From positions 9,176,001 through 9,240,000 of the forward strand of contig NZ_CP023699.1 of NCBI RefSeq assembly GCF_008704495.1: a stretch of 64,000 nt of DNA. Reading direction: 5' to 3'. Under the pieces are notes generated by a model that was given only the letters and a program-made list of their open reading frames with translations, ran no database searches and had not been told where the DNA came from. The stretch comes from Streptomyces kanamyceticus. GTDB lineage: Bacteria; Actinomycetota; Actinomycetes; Streptomycetales; Streptomycetaceae. Below, piece after piece: positions 4,499 through 7,103 of the stretch. Position 1 is the first letter of the stretch. Every line of letters starts with the position of its first letter. A program made the position numbers and the translations under genes.

Positions 4499-5479
4499 AT
4501 GAACTCACCCCACACACCGCCCAAGGTCGCCGTACTGGGCGCGACCGGGTGCGTCGGCCGAGAGGTGTGCGCCGCCTTCGCCCGCACCGGACACGAGATC
4601 CTCGCCATCGCCCGGAACCACCGCCCCCACGTCGAAGGTCACACGTTCATCCCTCTCGACGTCGCAGCGGCCGAACCGGCCGAGCTGGCCGAGGTGTTGA
4701 CGTCCGAGCGGGTCGGCGTGGTCGTCAACGCGACCGGCGGGTGGGTGCTCACCCAGGAGGCCATGGAGTACGCACATGTCCGCCTGGTCGACCGCGTTCT
4801 GGCGGCGACGGCGCGCATGGCCGAACGGCCCAGGGTCGTACAGGTCGGCACCATCCACGAGTACGGGTTCGTCCCCGAGGGAGTGCCCATCGACGAGCGG
4901 ATCGCGCCGAATCCGACGACGCCGTACGCCGTGACGAAGCACGCGGGCTCCGAAGCGGTGCTCGCCGCCACCAGGGCGGGCGACGTCGACGGAGTGGTGC
5001 TGCGGGCCGTCAACGTGTGCGGCCCGCACACCACGGAGGCCAGTTTCCTCGGTGCGGTCATGGCCCGCCTGGCGGTGGCGACGGAGGAGGAAGGCATCGA
5101 ACTGACCGTCGCCGACGCCCGGCGCGACTACCTGGACGTGCGGGACCTGGCCGAAGCGGTGGTCAAGGCGGCACATGCCCCGGCCGTCGGACAGGTGGTC
5201 AATGTGGGGCGCGGGGAGGCGGTGAGCATGCGGGAACTCGTCGCGCTGCTGGTGGCCGCGTCCGGCTTCCCCGCCCACGCGGTCAGGGAACGCTCCGCGG
5301 CGGTGGAGAGCAAGGGCGGCGGCTGGACGCGCGCCGACATCTCCCTCGCGGAGCGACTCCTCGGCTGGCGCCCCCGCATCGATCTCGCCCGAGCCATGCG
5401 GGACATGTGGGCCACCCGCGCCGTGGCGAGCCACACCCCCACCGTCACCCGTACTCGATCAACACCGGCCGTTCCGTGA
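4499..5479 (+). CDS. NAD-dependent epimerase/dehydratase (NDP-sugar 4-ketoreductase-like)
   Basis: A 326-residue extended SDR. VAVLGATGCVG near the N-terminus is the NAD(P)-binding glycine motif, and YAVTK supplies the catalytic Tyr-Lys pair. The ATG at 4499 lies 12 bases after AAGGAG (4481-4486), which overlaps the stop codon of the glycosyltransferase. The open frame extends far upstream through that gene but has no comparable start. The context suggests the last reduction of an NDP-deoxysugar before transfer. Its 3' end overlaps the oppositely oriented HTH gene by 35 bases. Confidence 0.85.
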   Translation: MNSPHTPPKVAVLGATGCVGREVCAAFARTGHEILAIARNHRPHVEGHTFIPLDVAAAEPAELAEVLTSERVGVVVNATGGWVLTQEAMEYAHVRLVDRVLAATARMAERPRVVQVGTIHEYGFVPEGVPIDERIAPNPTTPYAVTKHAGSEAVLAATRAGDVDGVVLRAVNVCGPHTTEASFLGAVMARLAVATEEEGIELTVADARRDYLDVRDLAEAVVKAAHAPAVGQVVNVGRGEAVSMRELVALLVAASGFPAHAVRERSAAVESKGGGWTRADISLAERLLGWRPRIDLARAMRDMWATRAVASHTPTVTRTRSTPAVP

Positions 5480-7103
5480 CGAGTTGGCGGTCTCCGGGCC
5501 GTACCCGCTGCGTGGAGCCGTCGAGTCGGCGGACGCGTTCGGCGCCAGGTCCGCCTGGCACCTCGGCCGTGCCGGTGTGGGTCCACCGGACGCGGGCGGT
5601 CCGCGGGCGGCCGCCGGAGTCGCGTACGCGGAACTCGCACTGCCAGACGTTGTCCGGGAGGGAGGCCCGCGCGCCGCTGCCGCAGCCGCGCAGCCGCGCG
5701 CCGGACAGCCACCGCTGGAGGCGGCCCACGAACTCGCCCGCCTTGGTGGGTGGTTGGCCCTCCGCCTGGAGCACGAGGGGGAGCTTGCCGTTGCCCCAGG
5801 CGTAGAAGTACAGGCGGGCCACGCCGCGGTTCCTGGCGTACAGACCGGTCAGATAGAAGCGGACCGCGTAGTCGGCGGCCGTGTCCTCGTCCAGCGGATC
5901 GTTGAGCGGCAGCGACTGGGTGGTCCCCGTGCTCCACACCGGCAGGTGGTATCCGGCGCGTTGGAAGGTGCGCTCGATCCCCAGGACCGCGTCCAGCATG
6001 GTCTCCGGAGGGTCGGTGACGCGGCGTTGGTAGAGCTTGACGCCCGCCGCGTCGCAGTACTGGTACCCGCCCGCCTCGGCGAAGCGCAGCAGGTAGTCGT
6101 GTGCCTTCCGGTCCCACAGCCCGGTGACCGAGGGGCAGACCACGGTCGCGCCGGGGTCGGCCGCCCGGATGGTGGCGCTCGCCCGGCGGGTCATCTCCAC
6201 CAGGGTCCGCACGCTCCCGTTGTAGTGGTGGGGATGGTTGGCCATGACCCACAGTTCGTACGCGTCGATCCGGTCGCCCGCGTGCCGCACCAGGGCACGG
6301 ACGAAGGCGTCCCAGTCGGCGAGGTCGTCCGGCGGCGCCGCCCGCGAGCCGTCCGGGTAGGCGGCCCTGCGGGCATCGGGTGCGGCCCAGGCGGGGGTGC
6401 CGCCGAAGACGAACAGGGTCGGCAGCTCCTCGCGTTCGGCGGCGTCGAGGAGCCGGTCGAGAGTGGACCAGTCGTACGTGCCCTGCTCGGGCTCCAGCTG
6501 GGCCCAGCGCGTCTCGCTGTCCCACAGGCGCAGGGAGCCGACCCGGAAGGACGGTGTCGCCCCGCTGGAGCTGTTCATCGTCACACCGAACACCTCTGGA
6601 TCGACCGCCTTCGGCGCCCCCGCCCAACTCGCCGCGGCCGCGGCCGTGGGAGCGGGCACGCGCGCGGCCGCGTCGTGACCCGGCGCGCTGGCCACTGCGC
6701 CGCTGAGGACGAACAGGGCGACGACGACGGCGAGGACGAACCGCACGGTCGGAGCGTTGGGTCGGGGTCGGGGTCGGGGTCGGGGTCGGGGTCGGGGCCG
6801 GGGCCGGGGCCGCGGCTGTGGGCTTGGGGAGCCGGTGGGCGGCTGCTCGCGTCCCGTGGCCGTCCGCCAGTGCCGCAGCAGCTCGTTGAGTTCCTCCGGT
6901 CCCGCTCCGCACTCCTCGGCGATGCGGACGAGCAGGCCGTAGTCGCCCGGCGCGGCCCGGCCGGTGCAGTAGCGGTGCAGCGTGGAGCGGCTGGTGAACA
7001 CCCGCCGACCCAACTCCTGGTAGCTGAGCCCACTGCGCTCCTTGAGCGCCGCGAGTGCGGCGGCCAACTCCCGTACGCCGTCTGCCTCTGCCACATCCCC
7101 CAC
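5445..7103 (-). CDS. Transmembrane HTH protein with pseudo-glycoside-hydrolase outer domain
   Basis: The 552-residue protein has three parts. Residues 10-80 form an XRE-like helix-turn-helix domain (LSYQELGRRVFTSRSTLHRY). A run of Arg-Pro dipeptides (about 97-115) leads to one membrane segment at about 120-140. Residues 165-500 resemble a GH39/cellulase-type TIM barrel (WAQLEPEQGTYDWSTLD; FGGTPAWA). Where such enzymes carry the acid/base Asn-Glu-Pro, this one reads YELWVMANHP (281-290). Where the nucleophile Glu is expected, it reads LPVWSTGTTQ (387-396). Both glutamates therefore appear absent, suggesting binding rather than hydrolysis. A GTG start is used; a second GTG lies 3 codons on. I infer a one-component sensor with an extracellular carbohydrate-recognition domain. 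Confidence 0.75.
   Translation of the reverse strand: MGDVAEADGVRELAAALAALKERSGLSYQELGRRVFTSRSTLHRYCTGRAAPGDYGLLVRIAEECGAGPEELNELLRHWRTATGREQPPTGSPSPQPRPRPRPRPRPRPRPRPRPNAPTVRFVLAVVVALFVLSGAVASAPGHDAAARVPAPTAAAAASWAGAPKAVDPEVFGVTMNSSSGATPSFRVGSLRLWDSETRWAQLEPEQGTYDWSTLDRLLDAAEREELPTLFVFGGTPAWAAPDARRAAYPDGSRAAPPDDLADWDAFVRALVRHAGDRIDAYELWVMANHPHHYNGSVRTLVEMTRRASATIRAADPGATVVCPSVTGLWDRKAHDYLLRFAEAGGYQYCDAAGVKLYQRRVTDPPETMLDAVLGIERTFQRAGYHLPVWSTGTTQSLPLNDPLDEDTAADYAVRFYLTGLYARNRGVARLYFYAWGNGKLPLVLQAEGQPPTKAGEFVGRLQRWLSGARLRGCGSGARASLPDNVWQCEFRVRDSGGRPRTARVRWTHTGTAEVPGGPGAERVRRLDGSTQRVRPGDRQLVTERPVLIEYG
6759..6814. repeat. Hexamer tandem repeat encoding Arg-Pro linker
   Basis: About nine copies of GGTCGG or GGCCGG run in tandem within the HTH protein gene. 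On the coding strand they give alternating Arg and Pro codons. The repeat forms the stiff positively charged linker just before the membrane segment and is a likely site of slippage-driven length change. Confidence 0.85.

Follow-up and report, generated by a model that had tools for sequence, protein, structure and literature searches.

Can the barrel of a glycoside hydrolase (GH), once stripped of its catalytic residues, serve as the outer half of a one-piece transmembrane regulator? The question is raised by a gene in a 64,000-nucleotide stretch of the Streptomyces kanamyceticus genome (contig NZ_CP023699.1, positions 9,176,001 to 9,240,000; hereafter the window, with positions counted from its first letter). 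The gene occupies 5445–7103 on the minus strand and encodes a 552-amino-acid protein, here called the sensor. Its open reading frame (ORF) begins with GTG, and a second in-frame GTG three codons downstream, read from the sequence, offers an alternative start. We consider it likely that the sensor is a local, membrane-anchored one-component regulator, whose XRE-type helix-turn-helix (HTH) domain binds a bipartite site upstream of the gene and controls both its own gene and the divergent neighbor, and whose pseudoglycosidase ectodomain binds a ligand instead of cleaving it.

The architecture of the protein comprises an N-terminal HTH, a single transmembrane helix, and a C-terminal extracytoplasmic domain, with the topology being a prediction. 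A Pfam scan identified residues 12–75 as HTH_31 (PF13560, E-value 4.5e-13; 6879–7070, minus strand, as are all sensor features below). This domain is followed by a proline-rich linker, here an arginine-proline run at residues 97–116 (6756–6815), encoded by 8.5 copies of a hexamer. A hydrophobicity scan revealed a single hydrophobic segment at approximately 120–140, with the best 19-residue window starting at 122, and the membrane helix is predicted at residues 120–137 (6693–6746). The predicted structure (mean predicted local distance difference test score, pLDDT, of 88.4; below 50 at residues 90–110, 112–117, and 139–147) contains a GH39/PslG-like barrel at residues ~165–470 (5694–6611) and a C-terminal beta domain at residues 471–552 (5448–5693). 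Comparing this model with known structures showed that both the barrel and the accessory beta domain are of the GH39-like type; Pfam matched the barrel only partially, to GH42 (25 bits, cut-off 21). An earlier sequence-only reading of this DNA had described the same succession of HTH, linker, membrane helix, and barrel, and had proposed the comparison with GH39, which came out in its favor.

What became of the catalytic residues? In a sequence-profile alignment with PslG of Pseudomonas aeruginosa, in which residues are paired by profile and not by structural superposition, the glutamate of the PslG WNEPN motif pairs with M287 and that of the WSTE motif with G393. These glutamates have chain indices 139 and 250, and the offset of 26 (a 416-residue chain ending at residue 442) turns them into Glu165 and Glu276, the catalytic residues given in the published PslG account (PMC11912335), where Asn164 is a residue of the −1 subsite. 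The sensor motif YELWVMANH (residues 282–290, 6234–6260) thus has M287 in place of the acid/base glutamate and V286 in place of the preceding asparagine, and LPVWSTGTTQ (residues 387–396, 5916–5945) has G393 in place of the nucleophile. Both motifs had been singled out as lacking their glutamates, which stands, although YELWVMANHP lies at residues 282–291 and not at 281–290.

The loss is shared by every family member aligned. A search with the full protein retrieved 495 matches (E-value up to 1e-3) and a search with the barrel retrieved 503; the best 120 of each yielded 145 proteins, which together with the query form an alignment of 146 rows. The sensor is not a one-genome oddity, since it has at least 145 related protein clusters. 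Position 287 is never occupied by glutamate (0/146) and accommodates twelve different residues, mostly leucine and methionine, while position 393 is glycine in 146 of 146 rows. The 159 rows of the sensor tier, in which the query protein is counted twice, likewise have glycine at 393 without exception and valine at 286 in 126 cases; Asn286 was lost along with both glutamates in nearly all of them. These residue counts cover all rows except L019 and L020, which are partial matches, and L063, a short sensor-relative fragment whose match is interrupted by a stop codon and which has aspartate at the nucleophile site, apparently a decaying copy.

A second tier of relatives emerged from a class-wide genome search, in which 40 of 394 genomes matched at 1e-20. 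Its members score 125–197 bits, compared with at least 428 bits for full-length sensor-tier loci. Twenty-three of the 24 fetched loci could be aligned (L064–L084, L086, and L087; L085 had no usable ORF), which is a subset of the second-tier places listed. These GH39-like actinobacterial proteins, the next-nearest relatives found, carry Asn286, Glu287, and Glu393 in 23 of 23 cases, a contrast that speaks against chance as the cause of the missing glutamates in the sensor tier. Many have signal- or lipoprotein-like N-termini by eye, and Pfam assigned nine of them to GH families and none to an HTH family. Both tiers share R192, W194, D195, W200, W239, W285, W390, T392, Y434, and W436, as well as R415, R430, and Y432, residues that, judging by their positions at strand ends, probably line the pocket. 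Cys474 and Cys489 also occur in both tiers (21/23 in the second), and Cys323 and Cys350 in the sensor tier only. In a tree of 50 rows, a single branch (Shimodaira–Hasegawa approximate likelihood-ratio test support 100, one change) divides 21 rows with both glutamates from 29 with neither. This was a quick tree, computed with the motif columns left out, with redundancy cuts that dropped two of the 23 both-glutamate rows, and with a midpoint root; the direction of change, a loss of the pair, is deduced from the enzymatic nature of the GH39 family and not from the root. Overall, the fold, the absence of both glutamates in every relative examined, and their retention in the cousins support the conclusion that the sensor is a GH39-like pseudoenzyme, in agreement with the sequence-only reading.

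Could the barrel nonetheless be an active glycosidase that employs other acidic residues, such as D195, E283, or E367, with the HTH and membrane helix merely tethering or co-regulating it? These residues are indeed highly conserved in the sensor tier (155/159, 159/159, and 159/159, respectively). However, D195 (22/23) and E283 (15/23, with glutamine in the other eight) are present alongside the canonical pair in the second tier and hence are not replacements for it, and E367 is found there in 11 of 23. Together with the concerted loss of Asn286 and both glutamates and with the invariant Gly393, this makes an active enzyme very unlikely. A fixed glycine at the nucleophile site, combined with an acid/base site that is free to vary, hints that selection has maintained a pocket for binding and that the site has not simply decayed. 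A sugar would be only one option for the ligand: because the position equivalent to Asn164 of the PslG −1 subsite is mostly valine, the former sugar may have ceased to be the ligand.

We next consider what the HTH may bind. The region between the two divergent genes, 7104–7313, which the sequence-only reading had flagged, contains a candidate operator, the inverted repeat CGTCCC-N10-GGGACG at 7191–7212 (no strand assigned), followed by a second GGGAC half-site at 7148–7152 on the minus strand, 44 base pairs (bp) beyond the GGGAC of the repeat. The center of the repeat lies upstream of both genes, approximately 98 bp from the sensor GTG and 112 bp from the ATG of the divergent gene, and the second half-site lies 45–49 bp ahead of the sensor start codon, a position that would suit a promoter. 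This bipartite arrangement, with GGGAC 43–44 bp on, occurs upstream of the sensor gene in 13 of the 14 loci with at least 60% protein identity, namely the window and twelve Streptomyces loci (L003–L013 and L015). The inverted repeat has at most two mismatches in 12 of the 13 and three in L011. The loci are related and are not independent trials; still, their proteins are down to 60% identical while the spacing is kept. The only exact bipartite copy in the 10.13-megabase (Mb), single-contig genome is the one upstream of the sensor gene. Two further bipartite matches with three mismatches were found in the window, one in L014, and two in L016, none of them in a region upstream of a sensor gene, and a first-order Markov sequence yielded four matches per 2 Mb at two mismatches and 25 at three. 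The conservation of this site is consistent with its being the operator of the sensor HTH. Direct control of DNA by a membrane one-component regulator, as first proposed, gains only indirect backing from the conserved repeat, and the membrane one-component layout is itself supported.

A regulon beyond the locus was considered and rejected. At up to three mismatches, the bipartite pattern occurs 153 times genome-wide versus 161 for the control, and as neither it nor the palindrome exceeds its controls, no wider regulon is claimed. The genome holds one place matching with a single mismatch (9389492) and a second exact palindrome at 9031165 (L021).

The other presumed target is the divergent gene at 7314–7859 on the plus strand, which encodes a 181-amino-acid protein with a signal-peptide-like start. 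It matched no known family in Pfam and NCBIfam scans, and its predicted structure (pLDDT 50.7) is unusable. Its homologs form six clusters, its own included, among 670 candidates; two of these, P0148 and P0149, come from contigs of the same lengths as those carrying the sensor relatives P0002 and P0003, respectively, and L003 confirmed the first pairing. By eye, a divergent gene for a secreted protein or lipoprotein lies next to the sensor gene at 12 of 16 loci (the window, L003–L010, L012, L013, and L016) and not at L011, L014, L015, and L017; L018, L019, and L020 were left out of this count, and L007 was judged by hand. Under an automatic rule, 10 of the 16 loci had one or more flagged divergent ORFs (that of L014 being antisense to a called gene), compared with 52 of 212 called genes, a loose comparison, as several ORFs were tried per locus.

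Two families of such neighbors were profiled. Family A4, the profile of the window's secreted protein, contains the protein of L013 and also matches ORFs beside the sensor in L014/L044, where they are convergent, and in the far relative L062, as well as near the sensor in L007. Family A6, built from L004, L005, L008, and L010, also matches L006 and the far relative L060, with a weak match (E-value 7.6e-4) to an ORF 6 kilobases away in L007. Every match to either profile up to an E-value of 10 falls in a sensor locus, among 3455 ORFs of the loci, of which the non-sensor loci have shorter flanks.

The recurrence of these secreted neighbors, with A4 and A6 reappearing next to the sensor gene even in distant relatives, and the loss of polar −1 subsite residues raise the option that the barrel's partner is a protein, for example the divergently encoded one, in a self-contained surface feedback loop. 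Speaking against a protein partner, profile comparison shows no relationship between A4 and A6 (hhalign probability 1.4), in contrast to the good conservation of the barrel, which has also retained its aromatic set. We regard a protein partner as rather unlikely, and it would be compatible with the regulator proposed here.

In the mechanism that we favor, the cytoplasmic XRE-type HTH_31 domain, presumably as a dimer, would bind the inverted repeat and the half-site and thereby govern its own gene and the divergent secreted-protein gene, whether as a repressor or as an activator. The single membrane helix would join it to the GH39/PslG-like barrel outside, which appears to have lost both glutamates in its ancestry while keeping much of the remaining pocket, and for this reason would bind a ligand without cleaving it. 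Ligand binding outside would then alter DNA binding inside, with the signal crossing the membrane perhaps through conformation, clustering, or proteolysis.

Several observations weigh against this mechanism. With the pocket face defined crudely by strand ends, its conservation did not significantly exceed that of the remaining barrel (1555 of 10,000 permutations were as high). The membrane helix and linker are poorly conserved: linker sequences differ in the 12 relatives whose linkers were compared, and linker length varies across the 146 rows, where the distance from HTH to barrel, helix included, has a median of 95 residues. The HTH is missing in 10 of the 146 rows, so the barrel also occurs without it; on the 50-row tree, its absence within the group lacking glutamates requires four changes, and the HTH-less members therefore seem to reflect secondary loss or shortened gene calls. 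The palindrome by itself is not rare in a GC-rich genome, with one match in the window versus 1.63 expected, 19 genome-wide at up to one mismatch versus 24 for the reversed control, and 55 further occurrences at up to two mismatches in 12 loci (212,597 bases, one strand). In addition, the 13 loci were picked for alignment after their upstream sequences had been viewed, which leaves as the only blind case the genome of L029, found later, where the bipartite site has no mismatch. Finally, the site is absent in Embleya (L014/L044), despite an identity above 60% and the nearest position to the query in the tree, implying that it was lost or changed there, and it was not found in L016, L017, L018, L031, L032, L045–L048, or L059–L062 (L018, whose called frame lacks the HTH, was scanned separately and kept out of the bipartite count).

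The absence of the site beside several HTH-bearing relatives, Embleya among them, also fits the idea that the repeat is a promoter element or the target of another regulator, with the sensor HTH regulating something else. The joint occurrence of site and gene at 13 of 14 close loci and in L029, at a spacing of 43–44 bp, and the location of the genome's one exact full copy at this very gene make this alternative unlikely.

The phase-variation idea raised by the Arg-Pro DNA repeat was dropped, because the hexamer unit keeps the reading frame and the run does not appear in the linkers of the 12 relatives. The HTH-less called frames that also lack both glutamates are P0121, P0122, P0123, P0125, P0126, P0135, P0138, P0141, P0145, and L062, and some HTH-less members bear the names beta-galactosidase or xylanase.

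How does the sensor compare with known systems? PslG and GH39 enzymes possess Glu165, Glu276, and Asn164 where the sensor has M287, G393, and V286, and the sensor barrel is fused to a membrane helix and an HTH. CadC/ToxR-type regulators carry a winged-helix DNA-binding domain. Trans_reg_C, the corresponding Pfam family, was not among the Pfam matches of the sensor, which were led by HTH_31 and included a weak sub-threshold match to HTH_24 (E-value 0.005), and identity with this type was rejected. The sensor resembles CadC/ToxR (PMC7888679) in having a cytoplasmic domain of DNA-binding type, one membrane helix, and an extracytoplasmic sensor, and differs in its XRE-type HTH_31 and pseudoglycosidase ectodomain. 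RsgI6 of Clostridium thermocellum, whose GH10 module is barely active yet still binds polysaccharide (PMC4711584; PMC12203970), is likewise a membrane regulator with an extracellular GH-derived sensor domain. However, RsgI binds a sigma factor and uses GH10, whereas the sensor has a DNA-binding-type HTH and a GH39-like domain without either glutamate. Its N-terminal Pfam matches are HTH families, besides a low-complexity match to the linker, and an RsgI-type anti-sigma identity was accordingly rejected.

A RodZ-like protein of cytoskeletal or cell-wall assembly, with an HTH that binds protein instead of DNA, would also combine an HTH, one membrane helix, and an extracytoplasmic domain. The sensor matches HTH_31, and the RodZ-type families HTH_25 and DUF4115 are missing from its nine Pfam matches up to an E-value of 1. 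Its ectodomain is a GH39-like barrel, close relatives carry a conserved inverted repeat ahead of the gene, and a patchy family, with long, strong matches in 4 of 41 congeneric genomes, own included, would be odd for a shape protein. We rejected RodZ identity and consider such a role most improbable.

The same genome encodes a further protein of this layout at 4.451 Mb (L002), with an HTH_31 domain that shares 48% identity with that of the sensor along 79 residues, what looks by eye like a hydrophobic segment, and a divergent gene (DUF4232). In contrast to the sensor, its ectodomain has no GH match and the bipartite site was not found. The shared layout with a different ectodomain suggests that the HTH_31–membrane arrangement may be a wider theme.

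The surroundings of the locus include, at 430–5479 of the window, a tailoring-type gene group encoding a SnoaL-like protein, a cytochrome P450, a short-chain dehydrogenase/reductase, an EryCIII-like glycosyltransferase, and an NAD-dependent epimerase. The last gene of the group is convergent with the sensor gene, with a 35-bp overlap of the 3′ ends (5445–5479). On the other side, a gene for an FG-GAP repeat protein (8094–9536) adjoins the small secreted-protein gene.

The sensor family is patchily distributed. A strong, long match was found in the 4 of 41 genus genomes mentioned above, own included, and in at least 6 of 297 genomes of the family rank at 1e-60, own included; counts made at strict E-values are minimum figures, since 4–6 candidates were scored per genome. 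Many small actinobacterial genomes (about 2–5 Mb) hold several GH39-like copies with the glutamate pair, up to the four scored in each (L064–L087). Among the matches listed, database names are mostly HTH-domain protein and at times beta-galactosidase, endo-1,4-beta-xylanase, PslG, or glycosyl hydrolase family 39; these enzyme names imply an activity that the sensor family probably does not have.

These data allow a tentative scenario, which we hold to be possible but short of probable. The one-component receptors would trace back to a single event, in which a GH39-like enzyme of an actinobacterium shed the catalytic pair and became fused to an HTH–membrane module. The glycine would have become fixed because the space it leaves now accommodates a ligand different from the original substrate; a glycan of the wall or one linked to lipid is a candidate, as is some portion of the secreted protein encoded alongside. 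Each copy would run a private two-gene surface circuit, made up of receptor and secreted protein, with its own operator.

Glycosidase-derived ectodomains on membrane regulators were already known from RsgI6 (PMC4711584). Searches of the open-licence literature, judged on the titles and abstract openings listed, turned up no description of the sensor family. New here are an ectodomain of this kind fused directly to a domain of DNA-binding type, a glutamate pair missing from all sensor rows examined, a sister group that keeps the pair, and a candidate operator. The family offers a before-and-after comparison within one bacterial class: relatives with the glutamate pair stand beside a single receptor clade that lacks the pair, and a candidate operator and a candidate target gene adjoin the receptor gene. 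Both the conversion of an enzyme into a receptor and one-piece transmembrane signaling in Gram-positive bacteria become directly testable.
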